A stretch of 64,000 nucleotides of DNA from Prevotella melaninogenica. Lineage in GTDB: Bacteria; Bacteroidota; Bacteroidia; Bacteroidales; Bacteroidaceae. The position numbers and the translations under genes are program-made. Position 1 is the stretch's first letter. Every line of letters starts with the position of its first letter. Shown in pieces: positions 2,824 through 30,144 of the stretch. The DNA lies in the NCBI RefSeq assembly GCF_018127965.1, contig NZ_CP072349.1, positions 810,001 to 874,000 on the forward strand, read 5' to 3'. The notes under the pieces are model-generated. The model saw only the letters and a list, made by a program, of their open reading frames with translations, was not told where the DNA came from and did no database searches.

Positions 2824-3608
2824 TTATGCTACTTTGAATTTGTTTACAAAGTAAATTTGCCCTTTACCAGTTACCTTTGGAGTTATTGTCGTGTACATTA
2901 CACCATTGTTACCGCTACGAGTGCCTTTCTTCAATTCAAATAGACCTTGTTCAATGTAGCGTTGATTTGGTATATTGTATCTCTCGCCCTTTGTGCCAAG
3001 ATACCCATTTTCACGTAACCACTTGAAAAGTCGCTTTTCGCCCATAGGATAGCCGTTTTGGTCAATCAGCTTTGCAAGTTCACCAATCAAGCATGAAGAT
3101 GCAGAACCGCTGACTGCTTGCGTAAATGTCACTGCTGGGGCTGTTTCTTCTATTATTCTTTTGTTCTCAGCTTCAAGCCGTGCCTTTTCCTCTCTTTCTT
3201 GTTTCAGTTGTGTTGCCATTCTGATAACAAGGTCAGGGTTGTTCACCATTTCGTCAAGTGTTGGCTGTGTGGCTGTCATGCCATACTTTAGCAGTTCTTT
3301 TATTCTATCATTGCACCAAATCGCAAAAGCAGGGCTAAGCCAACGTGCAAACTCTAATGCTACATCTTCGTGCATCCATGTGCCGCCACCGCCATTGATA
3401 CCACCGCTATTTGTCTGAATTAGAGCGGTGTCCGATTTTCGGATAGCGGTCAAAGCTGCCAAAAACTCTTTGTAGATGGTAATTCTAACCACTTTGCAGG
3501 ACGCTTATCAAAAGATTTTGCCATTTCAGTTGCATTTACCATCACATTTTTGCCGTTTGCAAAAGAAATCTTACTACCTTTGTAATCGTAAACAATAGGT
3601 GTGTTCAT
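2824..3608 (-). pseudogene. KilA-N domain phage antirepressor, split by a -1 frameshift
   Basis: Phage antirepressors of this type relieve repression by binding the repressor or DNA. The ATG at 3608 opens a 52-codon frame with the KilA-N start (NGKNVMVNATEMAKSFDKRP then AKWLELPSTK) which ends at 3450. The rest of the domain (EFLAALTAIRKSDTALIQTN and FARWLSPAFAIWCNDRIKEL) and a C-terminal KilAC/ANT-type region continue in the -1 frame to 2824. Family alignment puts the switch at STK|EFL, bases 3467-3472, where the DNA reads ACA AAG AGT. One missing G (AAAGGAG expected) or a -1 slip on A AAG would restore a 261-residue protein. Inactivation, sequencing error and programmed slippage cannot be told apart here. 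The leader carries the structured RNA at 3668-3766. Confidence 0.85.
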
Positions 3609-3634
3609 ATTTGAATATTTTGTTTATATTTGGC

Positions 3635-3652
3635 AGGTCAACCCCCTGCCAT
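3635..3652 (-). promoter_or_regulatory. Leader hairpin before the KilA-N start
   Basis: Minus-strand stem GGCAGG/CCTGCC with a short G-rich loop, about 30 bases before the ATG at 3608. No U-run follows it. It is absent from the otherwise similar leader of the Rha gene at 26324. Confidence 0.4.
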
Positions 3653-3667
3653 TTTTGTTTATAAAAC

Positions 3668-3780
3668 AAGGGCAAAAACTAAGAAGTCTTGATGTGGTGT
3701 TTAGACCTCGAAGTTAATGCCCTTTAAATATCTTCTCTACCACCAAACACCACTAAGGCGGTTACTACATTGCAAAGATA
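3668..3780 (-). promoter_or_regulatory. Promoter and structured leader RNA of the KilA-N antirepressor (kissing-hairpin candidate)
   Basis: A TATCTTTG -7 element at 3773-3780 starts a leader of about 160 bases. It contains hairpin D (3757-3762 with 3739-3744, one G-U), whose 12-base loop ends in GTGGTGTTT (3745-3753). Hairpin C (3703-3709 with 3683-3689, one G-U) has a loop that begins AAACACCAC (3694-3702), the exact complement of the D loop. A 7-bp helix AAGGGCA/TGCCCTT (3718-3724 with 3668-3674) encloses hairpin C. The same layout occurs at 26356-26456 with different stems and loops that still pair, and an identical connecting segment. This is covariation read directly from two copies. The role, probably control of antirepressor translation or transcription, is inferred. 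Confidence 0.7.
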
Positions 3781-3804
3781 TTGCTTTCTTATCTTCTATC
3801 TCTT

Positions 3805-3915
3805 TTATCTTTTGCGAGTAAAACTACAACGCTTCGATTGTTGTTTTTTCTCTGTTTTGATAGCGTTATCCACTATCTCATTAACCCATGCTGCTGTTTC
3901 TTGTAAGTTGTTCAT
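3805..3915 (-). CDS. Very small phage protein (36 aa), paralogue of the 26768 gene
   Basis: A 36-codon frame beginning MNNLQETAAWVNEIVDNAIK. Its paralogue in the other module (26768-26869) begins MDKLKETAAWVNDIVAHALE. The conserved ETAAWVN(E/D)IV core in two diverged copies is good evidence that it is translated. Its ATG overlaps the stop of the ASCH gene (TAATG), so translation is probably coupled. Function unknown; a small helical regulator or inhibitor is possible. Confidence 0.7.
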   Translation of the reverse strand: MNNLQETAAWVNEIVDNAIKTEKKQQSKRCSFTRKR

Positions 3916-4623: not shown

Positions 4624-4950
4624 TTATGCTATTCTAACTAAGTTTGCTTTTTTGAAACAACGCCACTCGTCTTTTTCGCAATCAAAGTACACTTGACAAG
4701 TGTCTGCTGTTTTCTTTGTACCCTTTGTCGCAGGTATTCTGTCACTCATAAGAGTGCCGTAAGCCTCTCTCAGAGTGCCGTCTACTTTCTGAAAGTAGAA
4801 CTTAACTATTCGCTTGCTAAGGGCTGCTTTTAGCTTGATATTAACCCAAGCGCACTTTAACGCTTCTGATAATGTATAACCATTCTTGCGTACGAACTGC
4901 CAAGCAAGATTCATTACCTCTCTCATAGTGTTCTTTAATGTAGTACTCAT
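4624..4950 (-). CDS. DUF2693 / WYL_2 SH3-like small phage protein
   Basis: 108 residues from the ATG at 4950 (MSTTLKNTMREVMNLAWQFV). The C-terminal half, VKFYFQKVDGTLREAYGTL then CEKDEWRCFKKANLVRI, matches the Sm/SH3-like barrel family PF10902 common in Bacteroidota phages and mobile elements; its role is not established. It is the first gene of the leftward operon facing the repressor, as is its paralogue at 26871. Bases 4624-4758 are identical to 26871-27005 (135 bases), which points to recent duplication or gene conversion. Confidence 0.75.
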   Translation of the reverse strand: MSTTLKNTMREVMNLAWQFVRKNGYTLSEALKCAWVNIKLKAALSKRIVKFYFQKVDGTLREAYGTLMSDRIPATKGTKKTADTCQVYFDCEKDEWRCFKKANLVRIA

Positions 4951-4996
4951 AATCTTATAGTTTAATAGTTTTATACTTTGTTTCTTAATCACAATG

Positions 4997-5529: not shown

Positions 5530-5829
5530 ATGAAAAAGTTCCTACTACCAATTACAATTTTACTCTTGGCTATTTTGGGGTGTGACAGAAAGACTCCATC
5601 TCAATGCGCTAAAGATGATGTGGAGCAATATATACAATCGTGTAAGGAAGATGAAATGAAACATGAAAGGTATATAGATAGTCTCGTTAATGTTGCAACT
5701 GGTCTTGATGGAGAAACACTTGTAAGGAATAGACAAAATGCCTTAGATATTCTAAGGAAAGAATACCCTCAAATGAATGAAAAGTGGGACTCTGTGCAAG
5801 AAAGTATATGTAATGGCGATTTATATTAA
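5530..5829 (+). CDS. Small lipoprotein, probable moron
   Basis: 99 residues with a lipoprotein signal: MKKFLLPITILLLAILGC, where ILGC is the lipobox and Cys18 the lipidated residue. The mature part is charged and helical with no known domain. It lies 47 bases after the repressor on the same strand, and TACTTTTG at 5494-5501 could be its own -7 element. The location suggests expression in the lysogen. Surface lipoproteins in this position often change host envelope properties or exclude other phages, but that is inference. Confidence 0.7.
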   Translation: MKKFLLPITILLLAILGCDRKTPSQCAKDDVEQYIQSCKEDEMKHERYIDSLVNVATGLDGETLVRNRQNALDILRKEYPQMNEKWDSVQESICNGDLY

Positions 5830-5931
5830 TATTATGAAATGGCAGCTTTGTGGCTTTTGTTAAGGATGGAGTTAACATTTACCATGCTGAAAGTTGGCAG
5901 GAATTAGAAAAACTCATAAGTGTGAGAAATA

Positions 5932-7128
5932 ATGGGAATACTATTTCGCAAGCGTATTAAAATAGCCAAAGGCGTACACCTGAATATAAGTAAAAGTGGC
6001 ACAAGTCTATCTGTTGGACCACGAGGCGCAAAGGTTACGATAGGAAAGAAAGGTGTTTATGCAAATGTAGGAATACCCGGAACAGGGTTGTATGCAAGAC
6101 AAAAGATAAGTGGTGCAAGAAATACTACATATAAAAAATTGAAAAGACAGCAAGAAAATGAAGCTATAAATGCAAACCCCTTACGTTTCCTTATTATCTT
6201 TATTTCGTTGTTTTTATCAGTCATTTTACCATTATGGGGGGATGCTTCTTGGTGGTGGTTTCCCTCATTGTCAATAGGTGGTATAATTATAGGATTGTGT
6301 ATTCCTAATCCTAAAGAAAAAGATTCTGTTGATATTGTAAATGACGAGCCATTGCCAAATGACGTTGTGGAGAAAAAAGATGAAAAAATAGCTTCCAAAT
6401 TAAAAGAAGAAGATGTATCTAAGTTAGAAAATATAATCAAGTTACTAAATCTTGACCCATATTTTTTAGAAGTAGCACGCCTTGTAATTTCCACGCAACA
6501 AGGTTCTACGAGCGCAATACAAAGGAGATTTAACATTGGATATAATAGGGCGGGGAGAATAATTGACCAACTTGAGCAAGTGGGAGTTGTTGGTATTGCG
6601 ACTGGCTCTGCCCCAAGATGTGTATTGCTTTCAGATGAAAATGCACTTTTGGAAATAATATCTAATTTAGATGTTGAAAAATTCAAGGAACATATACAAA
6701 CAGAACCTTTCGCGGAAGCAAATTATTTCGAGGAATGCTCGCGCTTGATAGGTCTCGGCATTAATTTAGAGAAAGAAGGAATGATAGACGAAGCTATTAA
6801 TGTTTATGAAAAATCTATTGTTCCACAATTACCAGCAAAACACCCATACGAAAGACTGGCTATTTTGTATCGAAAACGTAAAGATTATGTAAATGAAATT
6901 AGGGTGCTAACAATCGCTATCAGTGTCTTTATGAAAGAGAATGAAAGGAGAGCAGGAATAGTATGCGACAAAGATGGTTCTCTCCATGATATGGTTATGC
7001 AGGCACTTGAAACTAATGAGAGTATAAGATATGAAGATGGGAAATGGGCTTTTGTTCAATATGATGTTATGGAATTTATAACTCGCTTAGAAAAAGCAAA
7101 GAAATTATTAAATAATCAAAATAAATAA
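5932..7128 (+). CDS. DUF4236 - membrane - FtsK-gamma-like winged helix - TPR protein
   Basis: 398 residues with an unusual domain order. Residues 1-60 are a DUF4236 domain (IKIAKGVHLNISKSGTSLSV, GVYANVGIPGTGLYAR). Two hydrophobic segments at about 86-103 and 106-126 anchor it in the membrane. Residues about 170-235 resemble the DNA-reading gamma domain of FtsK (YFLEVARLVISTQQGSTSA, QRRFNIGYNRAGRIIDQLEQ). Residues 255-330 look like TPR helices. FtsK gamma recognises KOPS and activates XerD, but no ATPase motor is present. It lies between a lipoprotein and another membrane protein in the moron operon, with the next gene three bases away. Function unknown; a membrane sensor of DNA or an anti-phage role is speculative. 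Confidence 0.75.
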   Translation: MGILFRKRIKIAKGVHLNISKSGTSLSVGPRGAKVTIGKKGVYANVGIPGTGLYARQKISGARNTTYKKLKRQQENEAINANPLRFLIIFISLFLSVILPLWGDASWWWFPSLSIGGIIIGLCIPNPKEKDSVDIVNDEPLPNDVVEKKDEKIASKLKEEDVSKLENIIKLLNLDPYFLEVARLVISTQQGSTSAIQRRFNIGYNRAGRIIDQLEQVGVVGIATGSAPRCVLLSDENALLEIISNLDVEKFKEHIQTEPFAEANYFEECSRLIGLGINLEKEGMIDEAINVYEKSIVPQLPAKHPYERLAILYRKRKDYVNEIRVLTIAISVFMKENERRAGIVCDKDGSLHDMVMQALETNESIRYEDGKWAFVQYDVMEFITRLEKAKKLLNNQNK

Positions 7129-7131
7129 GGT

Positions 7132-7431
7132 ATGGAAGACCTAAATCTATTCGCAATTGTGCTGATAATTTTCGGTATATTGCAAATTATCCTTTTCTTT
7201 AAGTTATGGATAATGACAAATGATGTAGCTGCGATTAGGAGAAAAATTGCTCCACCAATTGAAGATGTGCAGAAACCGCGTGATTTACTCGGCATGTACG
7301 TTCGTATTCGTTCGAATGGAAAGAAAGTGCGTGTCGTAGCTCGTGATAATGGTCAATACAAATGTGTTGATGGCGTAAATAACGAGCCGTGTGGTACTTA
7401 CTTCTATGAAGAATTGGAAGTATTAGGGTAG
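7132..7431 (+). CDS. Small membrane protein with SH3-like tail
   Basis: 99 residues. A single N-terminal membrane helix (LFAIVLIIFGILQIILFFKL) is followed by a soluble part with the beta-rich stretch GMYVRIRSNGKKVRVVARDN. No family recognised. It starts three bases after the DUF4236 gene, so the two are co-translated and probably act together. The hairpin at 7426-7444 overlaps its stop codon. Confidence 0.65.
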   Translation: MEDLNLFAIVLIIFGILQIILFFKLWIMTNDVAAIRRKIAPPIEDVQKPRDLLGMYVRIRSNGKKVRVVARDNGQYKCVDGVNNEPCGTYFYEELEVLG

Positions 7432-7448
7432 CTTAACGGCTACCTTTT
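7426..7448 (+). terminator. Terminator after the moron operon
   Basis: GGTAGC/GCTACC stem with loop TTAACG, followed by TTTT. The 19-base GGGTAGCTTAACGGCTACC occurs in inverted orientation at 8285-8304, so the BRO-N gene is flanked by mirrored copies of the same hairpin. Confidence 0.75.
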
Positions 7449-7491
7449 CCCATTATGATTATCACATACAGATAACGAGCTATTAGGATTT

Positions 7492-8279
7492 ATGCAATTA
7501 CAGATATTCAAATACCAGAGCGAGGAAGAGCAGCTGTTCAATGAAATAAGAACCATTGAGCAGGAAGATGGGAGTGTGTTATTCGGTGCAACAGACGTTG
7601 CCCGTGTGTTAGGATATGCCAATCCGCAAAAAGCAGTCAGAGAGCACTGTCGAGAAGAGGGGGTGAACGAAATAGACACCCCCACTAAAAATCAATGGGG
7701 AAAGGTTGTAACCCAAAGATTAAGTATATTACAGAGGGCAATGTTTATCGCCTTATCGTAAGGTCAAAGTTACCAAATGCCGAGAAATTTGAGAAGTGGC
7801 TTTTTGATGAAGTTGTACCATCTATCCGCAAACGTGGATACTATGGAAAGATTGACAGAACAGCACTACCGAACTTCATTGAAAGGTATAAGGAAAACTA
7901 TCATAAACTTCCAAGAGATTATTTCTCGGTCATATCGGAGATGTACGCACGCTTATATATGGAACTTGAAAAGGTAGGATATGTAATACCCGATATGGGC
8001 GAGCATGGCAAACAGATGATGCCCGATATTAGCGTAGGACGTGGGTTTGCAAACTTCCTCAAATGTCATAAGTCTGAGTTCTATAATACGGCTCAAACAT
8101 ATCGGCATACATTCCCCGATGGCAGGGAGGTAGATGCAAATATGTATCACATAGATGCCTTACCGATGTTTATCCGCTACATCAACGAAGATTGGATACC
8201 TAACCGTGCTATGGAATATTTTAAGAAGCGAGACCCATTGGCTTTGGACTATCTGCCAAAACTGTTGGGAGTAAAATAA
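7492..8279 (+). pseudogene. BRO-N antirepressor, split by a -1 frameshift at GGGAAAG
   Basis: The first frame (7492-7761) encodes the start of a BRO-N domain, GSVLFGATDVARVLGYANPQ through DTPTKNQWGK. The rest, KIKYITEGNVYRLIVRSKLP and EKWLFDEVVPSIRKRGYYG, plus a long C-terminal region, lies in the -1 frame (to 8279). The switch falls at G GGA AAG (7698-7704) in the zero frame. This is a canonical slippery heptamer, the same as the phage lambda G/GT site. A -1 slip would give a 262-residue protein; a one-base deletion would look the same. BRO proteins bind DNA and act as phage antirepressors. The gene stands alone between two mirrored terminator hairpins. Confidence 0.8.
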
Positions 8280-25547: not shown

Positions 25548-26324
25548 TCATGCAGCTTTGTTTTCACGCACAAGATTTGATATGATGGTGAAAATTTTAT
25601 CTATAAAATGATTTCTCACTGCAATATCTAACTTTGTCTCTTTATTGTGTAGTTTTTTGTAACTCTTAATTGATATATGATAGAGATAATACAACTGACT
25701 ATATACCTTATGCCAAACATCTTTGAAGTCGGTATTTGTCGCAATGGCATACTCTCTCACAAGCTGATTTACCCTTGCTTTCATGCTCATTTCGGGCAAA
25801 CGCTCATCTGATAATTTGGCTTCAAGGAGTTTCTCGCCATTTTCTTTGCGCTCTCTGTCCATGTTGTCAAGCCTCTGTTCTACGGCGCTCATTCTACGCT
25901 CTTGCTCTACCATAAGCTGTGCCTGCTGTAAAAGGTACTCTGCACCCGATAACTTCTTTTGGCTATCTTTGAGGGCGGATTCCATTTTATTGAAAGCTGC
26001 AATGTAGTCAAGTTTGAATTTCATTGCCCTTTTGCCAGTGAAACCCATAGCCAACAAAGTAAAGCCGTCTCGATTCATAACATATCGCTTTGCTCTCTTA
26101 AATCCGCCATTTGGTTGTGGCACATCTTCAAAGTATAGCTCAAACATGGTTTGGGGTGCATCCAAATTTGGATTACATTGATTATCAACATCTTGCACCT
26201 TTTCTAAGAGATTATCAATATCTCTTACAACATGCTCATGTGTTTTACCGAACTTTTCAGCAACCAACAAACTATTTGTCAGTGCTTGGCTGTTCTCGCC
26301 TTTGAAAACTAATTCGTTTATCAT
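25548..26324 (-). CDS. Rha family phage regulator / antirepressor
   Basis: 258 residues from the ATG at 26324 (MINELVFKGENSQALTNSLL). The N-terminal Rha domain shows VAEKFGKTHEHVVRDIDNLL, FELYFEDVPQPNG and RYVMNRDGFTLLAMGFTGKR. A coiled coil follows at about 150-190, then a C-terminal region ending in LVRENKAA. I prefer this start because family members begin at this Met; an upstream ATG at 26363 would lie inside the structured leader. Rha proteins interfere with or regulate lysogeny in many temperate phages. It is the intact counterpart of the broken KilA-N gene in the left module. Confidence 0.85.
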   Translation of the reverse strand: MINELVFKGENSQALTNSLLVAEKFGKTHEHVVRDIDNLLEKVQDVDNQCNPNLDAPQTMFELYFEDVPQPNGGFKRAKRYVMNRDGFTLLAMGFTGKRAMKFKLDYIAAFNKMESALKDSQKKLSGAEYLLQQAQLMVEQERRMSAVEQRLDNMDRERKENGEKLLEAKLSDERLPEMSMKARVNQLVREYAIATNTDFKDVWHKVYSQLYYLYHISIKSYKKLHNKETKLDIAVRNHFIDKIFTIISNLVRENKAA

Positions 26325-26355
26325 ACTATGTTGAAATTGATTATATTCATAGAAT

Positions 26356-26469
26356 AAGGGCAAAGGTGAAGACCGCCGATTGTCGCAGTTTGCGGTCTAA
26401 ACCAATGCCCTTTAAATATCTTCTCTGTTACTAACTGCGACGAAAGTAACTTTTTACTTTGCAAAGATA
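26356..26469 (-). promoter_or_regulatory. Promoter and structured leader RNA of rha (kissing-hairpin candidate)
   Basis: TATCTTTG at 26462-26469 is the -7 element. Hairpin D pairs 26445-26450 with 26427-26432 (GTTACT/AGTAAC) and its 12-base loop ends GTCGCAGTT (26433-26441). Hairpin C pairs 26392-26398 with 26370-26376 (AGACCGC/GCGGTCT) and its loop contains AACTGCGAC (26382-26390), fully complementary to the D loop. AAGGGCA/TGCCCTT (26406-26412 with 26356-26362) encloses hairpin C. The connecting AGAGAAGATATTTAAAGGGC is identical to the left copy, while all other helices have changed with pairing kept. Confidence 0.72.
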
Positions 26470-26870: not shown

Positions 26871-27197
26871 TTATGCTATTCTAACTAAGTTTGCTTTTTT
26901 GAAACAACGCCACTCGTCTTTTTCGCAATCAAAGTACACTTGACAAGTGTCTGCTGTTTTCTTTGTACCCTTTGTCGCAGGTATTCTGTCACTCATAAGA
27001 GTGCCATAAGCCTCTCTCATAGTGCCGTCTACCTTCTGAAAGTAGAACTTTACAACTCGCTTACTAAGGGCTGCTTTTAGCTTGATATTAGCCCAAGCGC
27101 ACTTTAACGCTTCAGATAGTGTATAACCATTTTTGCGAACAAACTGCCATGCAAGATTCATAACCTCTCTCATAGTGTTCTTAAATGATGTACTCAT
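26871..27197 (-). CDS. DUF2693 / WYL_2 SH3-like small phage protein (right module)
   Basis: 108 residues (MSTSFKNTMREVMNLAWQFV; VKFYFQKVDGTMREAYGTL; CEKDEWRCFKKANLVRI), almost identical to the protein at 4624. The last 135 bases of the two genes are the same. First gene of the leftward early operon facing the repressor at 27442. Confidence 0.75.
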   Translation of the reverse strand: MSTSFKNTMREVMNLAWQFVRKNGYTLSEALKCAWANIKLKAALSKRVVKFYFQKVDGTMREAYGTLMSDRIPATKGTKKTADTCQVYFDCEKDEWRCFKKANLVRIA

Positions 27198-27441: not shown

Positions 27442-27708
27442 ATGGATATAAAAAAGGTAATAAAAGAACATGGATGGACGCTTGAACGGCTGGCATCTGA
27501 AATGACAAATAAGCGAGAAGATAAAAAAGGTATATCTCAATCTTCATTATCGCAGTTACTTAACGGGAGTACACCATTAGACCGCTTGCAGGAGATAGCA
27601 TCTATTATAGGTGTGTCGGTATCTGAACTCGTGGCGGACGAAAAGGACGTATCAAATACTATCATTTGCCCCCATTGTGGGAAGCCAATCAAGTTTGAGA
27701 AAGTATAA
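27442..27708 (+). CDS. Xre-type phage repressor with C-terminal zinc ribbon (right module)
   Basis: 88 residues (MDIKKVIKEHGWTLERLASE). Helix-turn-helix recognition segment GISQSSLSQLLNG, then LQEIASIIGVSVSELVADEK and a CPHC zinc half-ribbon. It matches the left repressor nearly residue for residue outside the recognition helix and a short insertion, and a stretch of about 47 bases coding for QEIASIIGVSVSEL is identical. It should control the promoters at 27244-27415. An ASCH gene follows after 18 bases. Confidence 0.85.
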   Translation: MDIKKVIKEHGWTLERLASEMTNKREDKKGISQSSLSQLLNGSTPLDRLQEIASIIGVSVSELVADEKDVSNTIICPHCGKPIKFEKV

Positions 27709-27726
27709 TTAATAAAATAGAAAAGA

Positions 27727-28110
27727 ATGAAAACGCTAAATCTTATTATTAAGCAGGTGTACTTTGACCAAATTATAAATGGAACGAAGACACAAGAGTT
27801 TAGAGAGGTAAAACCTACTACTATTAAAAAACTCCTCCAACTCGATGAAGACGGCTATGAGTTAGAAGACGAGAAAGGTAACGCCATACCAATACACTAT
27901 GACGCTATCCGATTCTATGTTGGGTATAATAAAAACCGAGATAGTGCTTTGGTTGAGGTGAAAGGTGAGTATTGTGAAATATTCTTAGATGAAAACAACG
28001 AGCCGATAATCTACGAAGATGGAACGGATAAAGACGGAAATCCGCTTGAGTGGGTCGCAGAACAGGTCGTGTTTAACTTGGGTAAAGTTTTAGAAGTCCA
28101 TAGAAAGTAA
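27727..28110 (+). CDS. ASCH domain protein co-transcribed with the repressor
   Basis: 127 residues (MKTLNLIIKQVYFDQIINGT; REVKPTTIKKLLQLDEDGYE; ALVEVKGEYCEI). Third ASCH copy of the prophage; this one is read rightward with the repressor, so it is probably expressed in the lysogen. Its last 21 bases overlap the convergent gene at 28090. Confidence 0.78.
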   Translation: MKTLNLIIKQVYFDQIINGTKTQEFREVKPTTIKKLLQLDEDGYELEDEKGNAIPIHYDAIRFYVGYNKNRDSALVEVKGEYCEIFLDENNEPIIYEDGTDKDGNPLEWVAEQVVFNLGKVLEVHRK

Positions 28111-28494
28111 AGCCTTATTCATAAGCTCGTCCACGTTTTGACGAAAGTCTGAATAAGTGGTATAAAGTACCATCAGCTCCGTACAGGTTGCGGAAATAAC
28201 GCTTGCACAAGTTACTTTGGTAGCTTTGGTGATAGCACGTCTAAGCCCCTGCGGCATCTTGCCACCAAAGAATTTATTAGGAGAGTAAAGGTAGATGACA
28301 ACAAAGATAAACTCTTTGCGGTCGTTTACCTTTATTTCTTTGCCCTTTAATTCCTCGAATACTTTGTAAATCTTCGGAATGAGATTTAAGTCTTTCAGTT
28401 TAGGAGATGTGGCAATCTCATTATCTACTATGGCTTGACGTAATGCCGTGCGTGCCTTTTCTATTCTCTTGATTGTTTCGATTATCTGCTCCAT
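28090..28494 (-). CDS. Hypothetical phage protein (134 aa)
   Basis: 134 residues beginning MEQIIETIKRIEKARTALRQ, helical and basic with an RKEFIFVVIYLYSPNKFFGG core. It is a conserved-looking Bacteroidota mobile-element protein but I cannot name it. It lies between the immunity module and the integrase regulatory repeats and converges on the ASCH gene with a 21-base overlap. Confidence 0.6.
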   Translation of the reverse strand: MEQIIETIKRIEKARTALRQAIVDNEIATSPKLKDLNLIPKIYKVFEELKGKEIKVNDRKEFIFVVIYLYSPNKFFGGKMPQGLRRAITKATKVTCASVISATCTELMVLYTTYSDFRQNVDELMNKALLSMDF

Positions 28495-28600
28495 TTATAG
28501 AGTTTTCAACAAAAATATAGCAAATAATCTTAAATAATCAAATTTGTTTAGATAAATTTTTACATAGTAAGTAAATAAACACAACAAAATTTACTTATTT

Positions 28601-28725
28601 CAGTGTGTTGGTCAGTGTGTTGGTCAGTGTGTTGCTTTTTATTTTATACCTTTGTAAAAATCTAATATAAAGATAATTACAAAGGTAGTTAGTGTGTTGG
28701 TCAGTGTGTTGGTCAGTGTGTTGTT
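28601..28725. repeat. Two arrays of three 12-bp repeats flanking a palindrome
   Basis: Unit CAGTGTGTTGGT occurs three times at 28601-28636 and three times at 28690-28725, with small changes in the outer copies. Between them is an 11-bp inverted repeat TACCTTTGTAA/TTACAAAGGTA (28647-28657 and 28677-28687), each arm also matching a -7 element. The second array runs to the integrase stop codon. Probably binding sites for integrase, excisionase or a regulator. Confidence 0.7.
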
Positions 28726-29923
28726 ACGCTTTTAGAACATAGTCTAAAAGTTTTACATTTGCCTCGTTTATAGTATTAAAATCCTTTTTAATGTATAGTT
28801 CCGTTATCCTCAGTGACTGGTCAGTGTGGTTTAGCATATCATTAACTATATACTTGCTTATTTTTACGTCATTTACGGCAATTGTAGCCATAGAGTGCCT
28901 GGCAGCATAGAATTGTAGCCGTTCAATGCCCATTTCTTTACCAATCTCCTTTAGTCCGATGTTTATCGCACGATTGAAACTCTCCATTGTAGTAAAGCGT
29001 TCTGAAAAGTTAAACACATGAGTTTTACCCTTGTATTTCTCAACTAACGGCTTGATATAATCCGTTATTTTTACGTGTATCTCCGCCTTATCTCTCCGCC
29101 TATCCTTTGTTTTCATACGGTCATAGATAATAGTGTTATCTTCCAATTTATCAGCATAGTATAGGTCGGCAGAGTTCATTCCCATAAGGCAGAATGAAAG
29201 ACGGAAACAATCTAATGCCAAATCGTGACGGCTGGACTTCCCTTTAACTCTGATGTTGTCATATGGCAGGGCAAATATCCTCCTTATAGTTTCAACGTCC
29301 AAGGCACGCTTTTCTGCTACATTCTGTTCCACAGGCTTATACCTGTCCAAGGAGTGCTTAATACGGATAATATCGTTGTCTTCATCGTTATAATACTCCT
29401 TTGCAGCGTTGAATATAGTTTTGATACAATTAGGGTATAGAGATTGTGCCCTTGGACGGTCTTTTAATGCGTTCTCAAAGGCTTTCATTGCCTTAACGTT
29501 GATTTCCTCACAAAGGATATTATCACGCCCTACAAAGGAACACAAAGCGTTTAGAGCCGTTTTGTAGTTCTTTATCCCTTTAATAGTTGATTCTTTAATC
29601 CATTTCGCTGCAAACTCGGTAAATGATACCCCTTTATTTTCTTTCTTTTGTCGGATATAGGAAACAATAGTGTCAATGTCTATATCGTTAAACTCAAGAC
29701 TTAATTCACTTAACCTACTCCTATACTCTTTTATAATGTCGTTACACTTATCGAGTATATTTGCGTTTTTTATCTTGAATGAAGCTGTTATGTCCTTTTT
29801 AGTGATATACATCGTGGTAGGAATAAAACGTACCTTTGAGTTATGAGTGAATCTTATCACTACATTCCATGTTCCATCTGCACGCTTATTTCCTCTTTTT
29901 ATTAATGCCTTAAATGTTGCCAT
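28724..29923 (-). CDS. int: Tyrosine recombinase (phage integrase)
   Basis: 399 residues: N-terminal arm-binding domain (1-95), SAM-like core-binding domain (about 100-200) and catalytic domain (205-399). Active-site parts are YAARHSMATIA (second Arg), MLNHTD (His) and ELYIKKD (Tyr nucleophile). The first catalytic Arg is replaced by Asn in LMGMNSADLY, a substitution seen in several Bacteroidota integrases such as the IntDOT type. It sits beside the tRNA-Arg and faces away from it, with its start about 150 bases from the tRNA 3' end. It catalyses integration and excision. Confidence 0.93.
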   Translation of the reverse strand: MATFKALIKRGNKRADGTWNVVIRFTHNSKVRFIPTTMYITKKDITASFKIKNANILDKCNDIIKEYRSRLSELSLEFNDIDIDTIVSYIRQKKENKGVSFTEFAAKWIKESTIKGIKNYKTALNALCSFVGRDNILCEEINVKAMKAFENALKDRPRAQSLYPNCIKTIFNAAKEYYNDEDNDIIRIKHSLDRYKPVEQNVAEKRALDVETIRRIFALPYDNIRVKGKSSRHDLALDCFRLSFCLMGMNSADLYYADKLEDNTIIYDRMKTKDRRRDKAEIHVKITDYIKPLVEKYKGKTHVFNFSERFTTMESFNRAINIGLKEIGKEMGIERLQFYAARHSMATIAVNDVKISKYIVNDMLNHTDQSLRITELYIKKDFNTINEANVKLLDYVLKA

Positions 29924-30070: not shown

Positions 30071-30144
30071 TGACTCCGTTGGGATTCAAACCCAAGACCT
30101 TCAGAACCGGAATCTGACGCTCTATTCAGCTAAGCTACGGAGCC
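30071..30144 (-). tRNA. tRNA-Arg (anticodon CCG)
   Basis: Cloverleaf on the minus strand: acceptor GGCTCCG/CGGAGTC, D-arm GCTTAGC, anticodon arm TCAGA-TTCCGGT-TCTGA with anticodon CCG, T-arm TTGGG-TTTGAAT-CCCAA, discriminator A, no encoded CCA. It reads CGG codons. Its 3' end is the junction with the prophage and so the probable attachment site. Confidence 0.95.

Follow-up and report, generated by a model that had tools for sequence, protein, structure and literature searches.

A covarying kissing-loop RNA family with a terminator-like hairpin in leaders of Bacteroidales phages and prophages

Two 99-nt leaders in the window—the whole 64-kb stretch of DNA analysed here—belong to a well-supported family of RNAs without a match in Rfam, found in Bacteroidales phages and prophages, two named phages among them. 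Comparison of 33 distinct members supports a real RNA structure in which a kissing-loop helix covaries among homologues and is coupled to a terminator-like hairpin. Because a promoter box, a hairpin, a terminator-like hairpin with a docked loop, and a gene stand together in the arrangement of an attenuator, we interpret the element as a promoter-proximal transcription attenuator of Bacteroidales phages with the kiss on the terminator loop, a reading to which we assign a probability of roughly 57%. The element often lies ahead of genes of a type that brings phages out of dormancy, and it offers a testable handle on how Bacteroidales prophages silence antirepressors and other operons and on ways in which phages residing together might escape cross-talk.

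Anatomy of the two window copies

An earlier note on this DNA had described two duplicated leaders with a common segment and changed stems and loops, all of which are present; the two copies align without gaps (Table 1). Its placement of the leaders holds for the sequence but not for the strand, since the letters it gave were those of the plus strand and the RNA lies on the minus strand, read 5' to 3' from 3762 to 3664 in the left copy and from 26450 to 26352 in the right. In that direction the element consists of P1 (6 bp), 3 nt, the first kiss strand (9 nt), the P1 3' arm and a 14-nt linker, followed by P2 (7 bp), P3 (3–4 bp), P4 (6–7 bp), the apical loop and a T-rich tract; the second kiss strand (9 nt) is part of the apical loop of the P2–P4 hairpin. 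As the note had claimed, both copies form a first hairpin with a 12-nt loop on a 6-bp stem, and the loops GTGGTGTTT/AAACACCAC and GTCGCAGTT/AACTGCGAC are perfect 9-mer complements. The promoter box and the T-rich tract are additions to that description.

With up to three mismatches allowed, the window still contains just two occurrences of the 21-mer AGAGAAGATATTTAAAGGGCA, against a maximum of zero in 100 shuffles. Folding without pseudoknots recovers P1 and P2–P4 in both copies (z = −2.87 and −4.63). Kiss energies are −11.3 and −13.1 kcal/mol within the copies and −4.7 and −0.3 kcal/mol between them, which agrees with the claim that the loops of one copy do not match those of the other; as evidence for copy-specific control this mismatch is weak on its own, because when 20 kisses are crossed in all 380 ordered pairs, only 17% reach −8 kcal/mol.

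Table 1. Positions in the window of the two RNA elements, their parts and the genes behind them
Feature	Position	Strand	Remark
RNA element, left	3664..3762	−	99 nt; gapless alignment to right copy
Promoter box TATCTTTG (TAnnTTTG), left	3773..3780	−	10 nt before stem P1
P1 5' arm, left	3757..3762	−	partner 3739–3744
P1 3' arm, left	3739..3744	−	folding and covariation
Kiss strand 1 GTGGTGTTT, left, within loop 1	3745..3753	−	3 nt past P1 5' arm
Linker AGAGAAGATATTTA, left, conserved, single-stranded	3725..3738	−	gapless copy alignment
P2 5' arm AAGGGCA, left, base of terminator-like hairpin	3718..3724	−	folding and covariation
Kiss strand 2 AAACACCAC, left, within loop 2	3694..3702	−	complement to GTGGTGTTT
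P2 3' arm TGCCCTT, left	3668..3674	−	folding and covariation
T-rich tract (GTTTTAT...), left, after P2	3659..3667	−	sequence signature
RNA element, right	26352..26450	−	99 nt
Promoter box TATCTTTG, right	26462..26469	−	11 nt before P1
Kiss strand 1 GTCGCAGTT, right	26433..26441	−	complement to AACTGCGAC
Linker AGAGAAGATATTTA, right, conserved	26413..26426	−	gapless copy alignment
P2 5' arm AAGGGCA, right	26406..26412	−	covariation
Kiss strand 2 AACTGCGAC, right	26382..26390	−	covariation
P2 3' arm TGCCCTT, right, then weak T-tract ATTCTAT	26356..26362	−	covariation
KilA-N gene, 5' piece, 52 codons + stop (frameshifted gene)	3450..3608	−	
KilA-N + KilAC (ANT), rest of antirepressor gene	2824..3492	−	
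Rha antirepressor-type gene, first of long minus-strand structural-gene region	25548..26324	−	

Homologues and covariation of the kiss

The covariance-model search for homologues that the earlier note had proposed, run with a DNA pattern and with models lacking loop-loop pairs, yielded 31 additional distinct copies, for a total of 33 RNAs. A third copy, L001, lies before a Rha gene and was the single exact match to the 21-nt linker motif among viral contigs. Model R1, built from 3 copies with the kiss not given as pairs, matched 4 of the 299 genus genomes, the own genome being one of these, with more copies in virus loci fetched by KilA-N; R2 (9 copies) matched 7 of 399 family genomes and 3 of 393 order genomes, the own genome in both, with extra copies in virus loci fetched by Rha and BRO. 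With R3 (24 copies), 1 of 247 genomes across the class matched, namely the window's own, as did 10 of 149 in the genus of G718 (three of them previously found) and 1 of 61 in the genus of G608, which was G608 itself. All these prevalence figures are lower bounds, because only 10–67 candidates were scored per genome and the filters were strict. Members span at least three families of the order (f1, f20, f35), f35 being represented by one 28.6-bit match with an 8-pair kiss. Two of six named phage regions carried the element under R3—Bacteroides phage LoVEphage (OY731444) and Phocaeicola phage PV4-TP1 (PQ571302)—where it occupies unannotated gaps of ~540 nt preceding anti-repressor or KilA-N genes; in the same scan it was not found at L338–L341.

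The gapped DNA pattern hit 37 viral stretches and at least 115 genome stretches, and R3 on the 116 pattern loci other than L001 (L011–L126) gave one match at E ≤ 1, L028 (28.9 bits), which we rejected as a family member, being a plain terminator-like hairpin with no kiss. Weak matches at L268, L216 (= L220) and L175 (E 0.38–1.4), on inspection likewise without a kiss, were removed before counting. The counts also leave out two matches in G1078 (E 0.12 and 0.19), L325 (E 2.4), opposite-strand matches overlying true elements, and repeat sequences (L168, L176, L251, L259–L263, L265, L273, L275, L336, L343, L345, L350 and L351). Covariance models were adopted because a descriptor search (two hairpins, 8-mer loop complement, outer helix; 162 records) proved too loose, with 523 matches in its reversed-sequence control. 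Matches to the leader DNA in phages and plasmids included nothing relevant, and blastn of the L252 and L257 regions against phages gave no match.

Since no search model contained loop-loop pairs, the kiss provides an independent test of the structure. In the window pair and L001, each of the 31 pairs forms in every copy and 15 show double-sided changes, a result equalled in 0 of 500 shuffles. Across 24 copies, 96.5% of 713 cells of the whole structure are paired and 29 of the 31 pairs have changed on both sides, with a covariation score of 0.878 versus 0.215 in shuffles. For the kiss on this 24-row alignment, pairing reaches 99.0% of 203 cells, 54 of them doubly changed; seven of its nine pairs vary on both sides, and a shift of 1–3 columns leaves pairing at 32–53%. 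Thirteen matches in a later search comprised five repeats of known sequences and eight new copies, and all eight, which stood outside every model, keep at least eight kiss pairs (scores 8–11; shuffled sequences reach 7.5 or more in 2.1%). Overall, 32 of the 33 RNAs have at least eight consecutive kiss pairs, G-U counted, and 26 have at least nine, the sole exception being L209 with seven; the helix begins exactly at element position 10 in 29 of the 33, where 23 different octamers occur. Retention of loop complementarity in homologues was the test that the earlier note itself set for a kissing-loop RNA, and the structure came through it. On the element's strand, 41 G-U cells stand against 5 A-C cells, an excess that points to an RNA on the minus strand; the rows of alignment A6 were placed by the stem model, a procedure biased towards the stems with their G-U pairs but not towards the kiss.

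The earlier note's further statement that no named RNA has this form is supported by Rfam. Over the whole window nothing reached gathering score apart from one tRNA; at 3600–3850 only snoRNA and miRNA matches far under threshold appeared at E ≤ 5, and the elements at seven relatives' loci were without a match at E ≤ 1. By covariance model, the element does not belong to C4, IsrK or other Rfam families. Among the papers listed by full-text searches, no title or opening of an abstract gives an account of an RNA of this kind. Thousands of unnamed structured RNAs have been predicted from human microbiomes, some of them phage-linked in Bacteroidetes (PMC8040213), and an earlier nameless listing of the motif in that catalogue is possible.

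Promoter box, terminator signature and genes behind the element

The sequence TAnnTTTG, which we take to be the Bacteroidota −7 promoter box, lies within 60 nt upstream in 22 of the 33 copies (20 of them 9–22 nt before P1) and is missing there in 11, compared with 4.8% of control windows further upstream; on a set of 26 loci the figures are 20 of 26 versus 5.0% of random windows. Downstream, T makes up 52, 73, 76, 76, 82, 79, 64 and 48% of positions 1–8 after P2 and 15–30% of positions 9–16, where A increases. Within 12 nt after P2, 24 of 33 copies have TTTT and nine lack it; the rate is 6.4% for random 12-mers from the loci and 18.6% for the 100 nt preceding P1, and AAAA occurs in 5 of 33 tails. 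The tract is clear in the left window copy (GTTTTAT) and weak in the right (ATTCTAT). With a stem followed directly by a U-tract upstream of a gene (weakly so in the right window copy), P2–P4 looks like an intrinsic terminator, although a T/A-rich tract could also belong to a Bacteroidota start region. A terminator scan restricted to loops of 3–8 raised no flag on the element, whose P2 hairpin is 57 nt and not compact, and inspection by eye turned up no alternative antiterminator pairing. A second GC-rich hairpin (3631–3651) separates the left element from the start of KilA-N and was flagged as terminator-like on the plus strand; comparable hairpins follow the element in L163, L181, L164, L342 and L344 (by eye).

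In 24 of 26 loci an ATG frame of at least 60 codons starts 8–176 nt downstream of P2 (raw count), the gene being broken or ambiguous in the other two, the left window copy and L256. To characterize these neighbours we used 19 matches outside the window that came from genome searches and so were not chosen by gene; copies fetched via antirepressor proteins were left out as biased. In 10 of the 19, the gene next to the element is a KilA-N, Rha, BRO or AntA type (L163, L164, L251, L253, L254, L342, L343, L344, L345 and L349, with L251 and L345 assigned via their identical relatives L181 and L178), and in nine it is of another kind or without identification (L165, L252, L255, L256, L257, L258, L346, L347 and L348). 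Among the latter, L255 and L348 have a replication initiation gene with a Lin1244_N domain, and L257 a phrog_26019 protein with weak tail matches, probably a tail gene. The label of antirepressor leader given in the earlier note therefore fits about half of these loci and is too narrow for the family. No endoribonuclease toxin domain, as expected of a type III toxin-antitoxin system, was found among the first genes scanned, several of whose proteins are unannotated.

Within the window, the right element heads a minus-strand run of Rha, PAPS reductase, ParB-like, small and large terminase, portal, head and tape-measure genes. The left one precedes a broken KilA-N antirepressor gene, frameshifted between its two pieces (Table 1), and then a phrog_17422/26019 protein of the same family that directly follows the L257 element. 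Elsewhere the BRO gene of L164 is split, and the KilA-N gene of L181 looks frameshifted near its start (by eye).

Several smaller features recur around the element. Upstream of the RNA and on its strand, 8 of 33 copies have, as far as flanks reach, a small gene of the WYL_2 family (PF10902, an Sm-like SH3 barrel according to Pfam): in the window at 4624–4992 (−) and, by our own profile, at 26871–27197 (−) and in L001, L163, L164, L181, L254 and L274; among the other loci scanned, only L180 and L285 have it. Its protein is possibly an RNA-binding partner of the element, or merely a common phage module. The T-arm-like motif GGTTCRAnTCC (tRNA) falls between element and gene in 6 of 26 loci from two lineages, where 0.0025 per 250 nt would be expected, at 69 nt past the element in L253, L267, L336 and L337, 46 nt in L254 and 44 nt in L274. 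ARAGORN reported no tRNA at four of these six loci (L253, L254, L267 and L274), and the motif might be a leader processing signal. In L269, L320 and L362, a 5-bp hairpin with a purine-rich, Shine-Dalgarno-like loop stands just ahead of the start codon (by eye).

If the element is an attenuator, a promoter, usually 9–22 nt upstream to judge by the box, would initiate the transcript, and the P1 hairpin would fold first. The P1 loop would then capture the apical loop of the next hairpin by the 9-bp kiss, giving a P1/kiss pseudoknot that, as the covariation indicates, is joined via the conserved linker to the P2–P3–P4 hairpin. P2–P4 and the U-tract, whose signature is present, would act as an intrinsic terminator; by default transcription would stop and leave an RNA of ~110 nt, and alteration of the docked structure would let polymerase continue into whichever gene lies behind, be it an antirepressor, replication, tail-region or other gene. 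From this arrangement we infer that the simplest reading is termination by default, with read-through under certain conditions. The switch might be thrown by factors bound to polymerase, by a phage protein or by a short RNA that matches.

RNA types, specificity and competing explanations

Several comparisons set the RNA type against its flanks. The right window copy and L001 occupy the same Rha locus and differ by 4.6% over the upstream 300 nt, 38.4% in the RNA (linker and P2 identical) and 23.6% downstream, while the L001 RNA differs from the left window copy by 10.1%. For L163 and L181 the differences are 14.3% (upstream), 38.2% (RNA) and 40.3% (downstream); for L181 and L164 the pattern is the opposite, at 60.8%, 14.0% and 50.6%, respectively. 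Between L254 and L274, downstream sequence differs by 2.2%, upstream sequence by 46.8% and the RNA by 8.3%, with a compensatory change in the kiss. Type switching is not the rule everywhere, since in the close pairs L253/L267, L253/L337 and L255/L256 the RNA differs by 2.0–4.8%, less than the flanks. In each of the three records with two copies (the window, L184 and G1440) the kisses are unlike. Exchange of stem and kiss types against conserved flanks hints at sequence-specific control like that of phage RNA immunity; where present, it could reflect selection for specificity or plain recombination.

Because the kiss persists through changes of its sequence, and otherwise similar loci exchange types, it may follow that an element would respond only to its own kind through the kiss. 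We offer only tentatively the fuller proposal of RNA-coded specificity, in which terminators with private 9-bp kisses, their types exchanged as cassettes, would leave antirepressor and other operons answering only a matching RNA. The same proposal, on this point no less speculative, would have types diversify between close relatives and would place heteroimmunity in the kissing loops.

Types could also act in trans, a short terminated RNA of the resident phage pairing with an incoming or neighbouring copy to block or allow its gene, in the manner of P1/P7 c4, P4 CI or Gifsy-1 IsrK. Such an immunity would accommodate the switching of types in right copy/L001 and L163/L181, the compensatory kiss change in L254/L274 despite near-identical downstream sequence, the unlike kisses in all three two-copy records, and the position of antirepressor types as the commonest neighbours. 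We nonetheless regard it as unlikely, because both loops are already satisfied within the molecule and trans pairing must outcompete an internal kiss of −11 to −18 kcal/mol. Further, the 64-kb window contains no exact additional copy of either loop 9-mer or its complement outside the two elements, different kisses in two copies are expected by chance for most type pairs, and the divergent upstream sequence of L254/L274 means that recombination alone could account for that switch.

The known systems bear on this point as functional likenesses, not as membership of their Rfam models. AnrP is an antirepressor. IsrK of the Gifsy-1 prophage in Salmonella is a terminator-ended short RNA whose read-through mRNA includes anrP; the two transcripts can regulate each other, and its authors liken the system to P4 seqA and CI RNA (PMC4825925). 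This precedent of a short RNA plus read-through mRNA favours action in trans, and the terminator signature and antirepressor position of our element would fit such a dual output; the relevant part of that account describes no kissing loop on IsrK's own terminator, whereas the element has one on a terminator-like hairpin. P1/P7 c4 is likewise a phage RNA over antirepressor synthesis, with loop specificity and heteroimmune types (PMC12197685), but it pairs with the ribosome-binding region of the ant mRNA, whereas here both partners lie in one leader as an internal helix. Unlike c4, the element has a built-in terminator-like hairpin. Exact matches to the loop 9-mers and their complements lie only inside the two elements. 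P4 CI RNA with seqA and seqC also uses complementary leader segments to control premature termination in a temperate element (PMC4825925), though by a processed antisense RNA. In the 64 kb, neither 9-mer has a third exact occurrence.

Less probable still is antitermination of the HK022 put kind, in which the folded leader would bind elongating polymerase and carry it past later terminators of the operon. The right window copy at the head of its Rha-to-tape-measure run would suit this, as would the L257 element directly ahead of a probable tail gene (weak matches), but elements also stand ahead of replication genes and single regulators, and the U-tract follows directly on the fold; we know of no put site with a U-tract in that place. 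The likeness is to a structured phage leader RNA active during elongation, putRNA alone being known to act so (PMC9378689); unlike put, the element has a covarying kiss and, at its end, a terminator signature. The late leaders of phage 21 and lambda (PR'-tR') similarly combine promoter, short leader, terminator and late genes (PMC6606751), but there control is exerted by the Q protein on DNA and polymerase, whereas the element is a conserved structured RNA.

We think it improbable that the element simply forms a 5' end for control of mRNA translation or stability, or a processing signal, with no attenuation of transcription: a start codon only 16–35 nt after P2 in many copies and the tRNA-like arms after the element in some leaders would be in keeping with this, yet the T-run is sharply placed 1–7 nt after P2 and gives way to A-rich sequence, as in a terminator. 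A DNA-level role, as single-stranded hairpins for recombination or replication, would explain arms that are inverted repeats and types exchanged between loci, but is scarcely credible given the G-U excess on the element's strand and the fixed sides on which promoter box and gene lie.

At 5530–8279 (+), a plus-strand island lies within the minus-strand phage region; it encodes a BRO-N fragment as well as an FtsK_gamma/DUF4236 protein. A probable prophage end lies at 27442–29923 and 30071–30144, marked by a Cro/C1-type regulator, an integrase and a tRNA.
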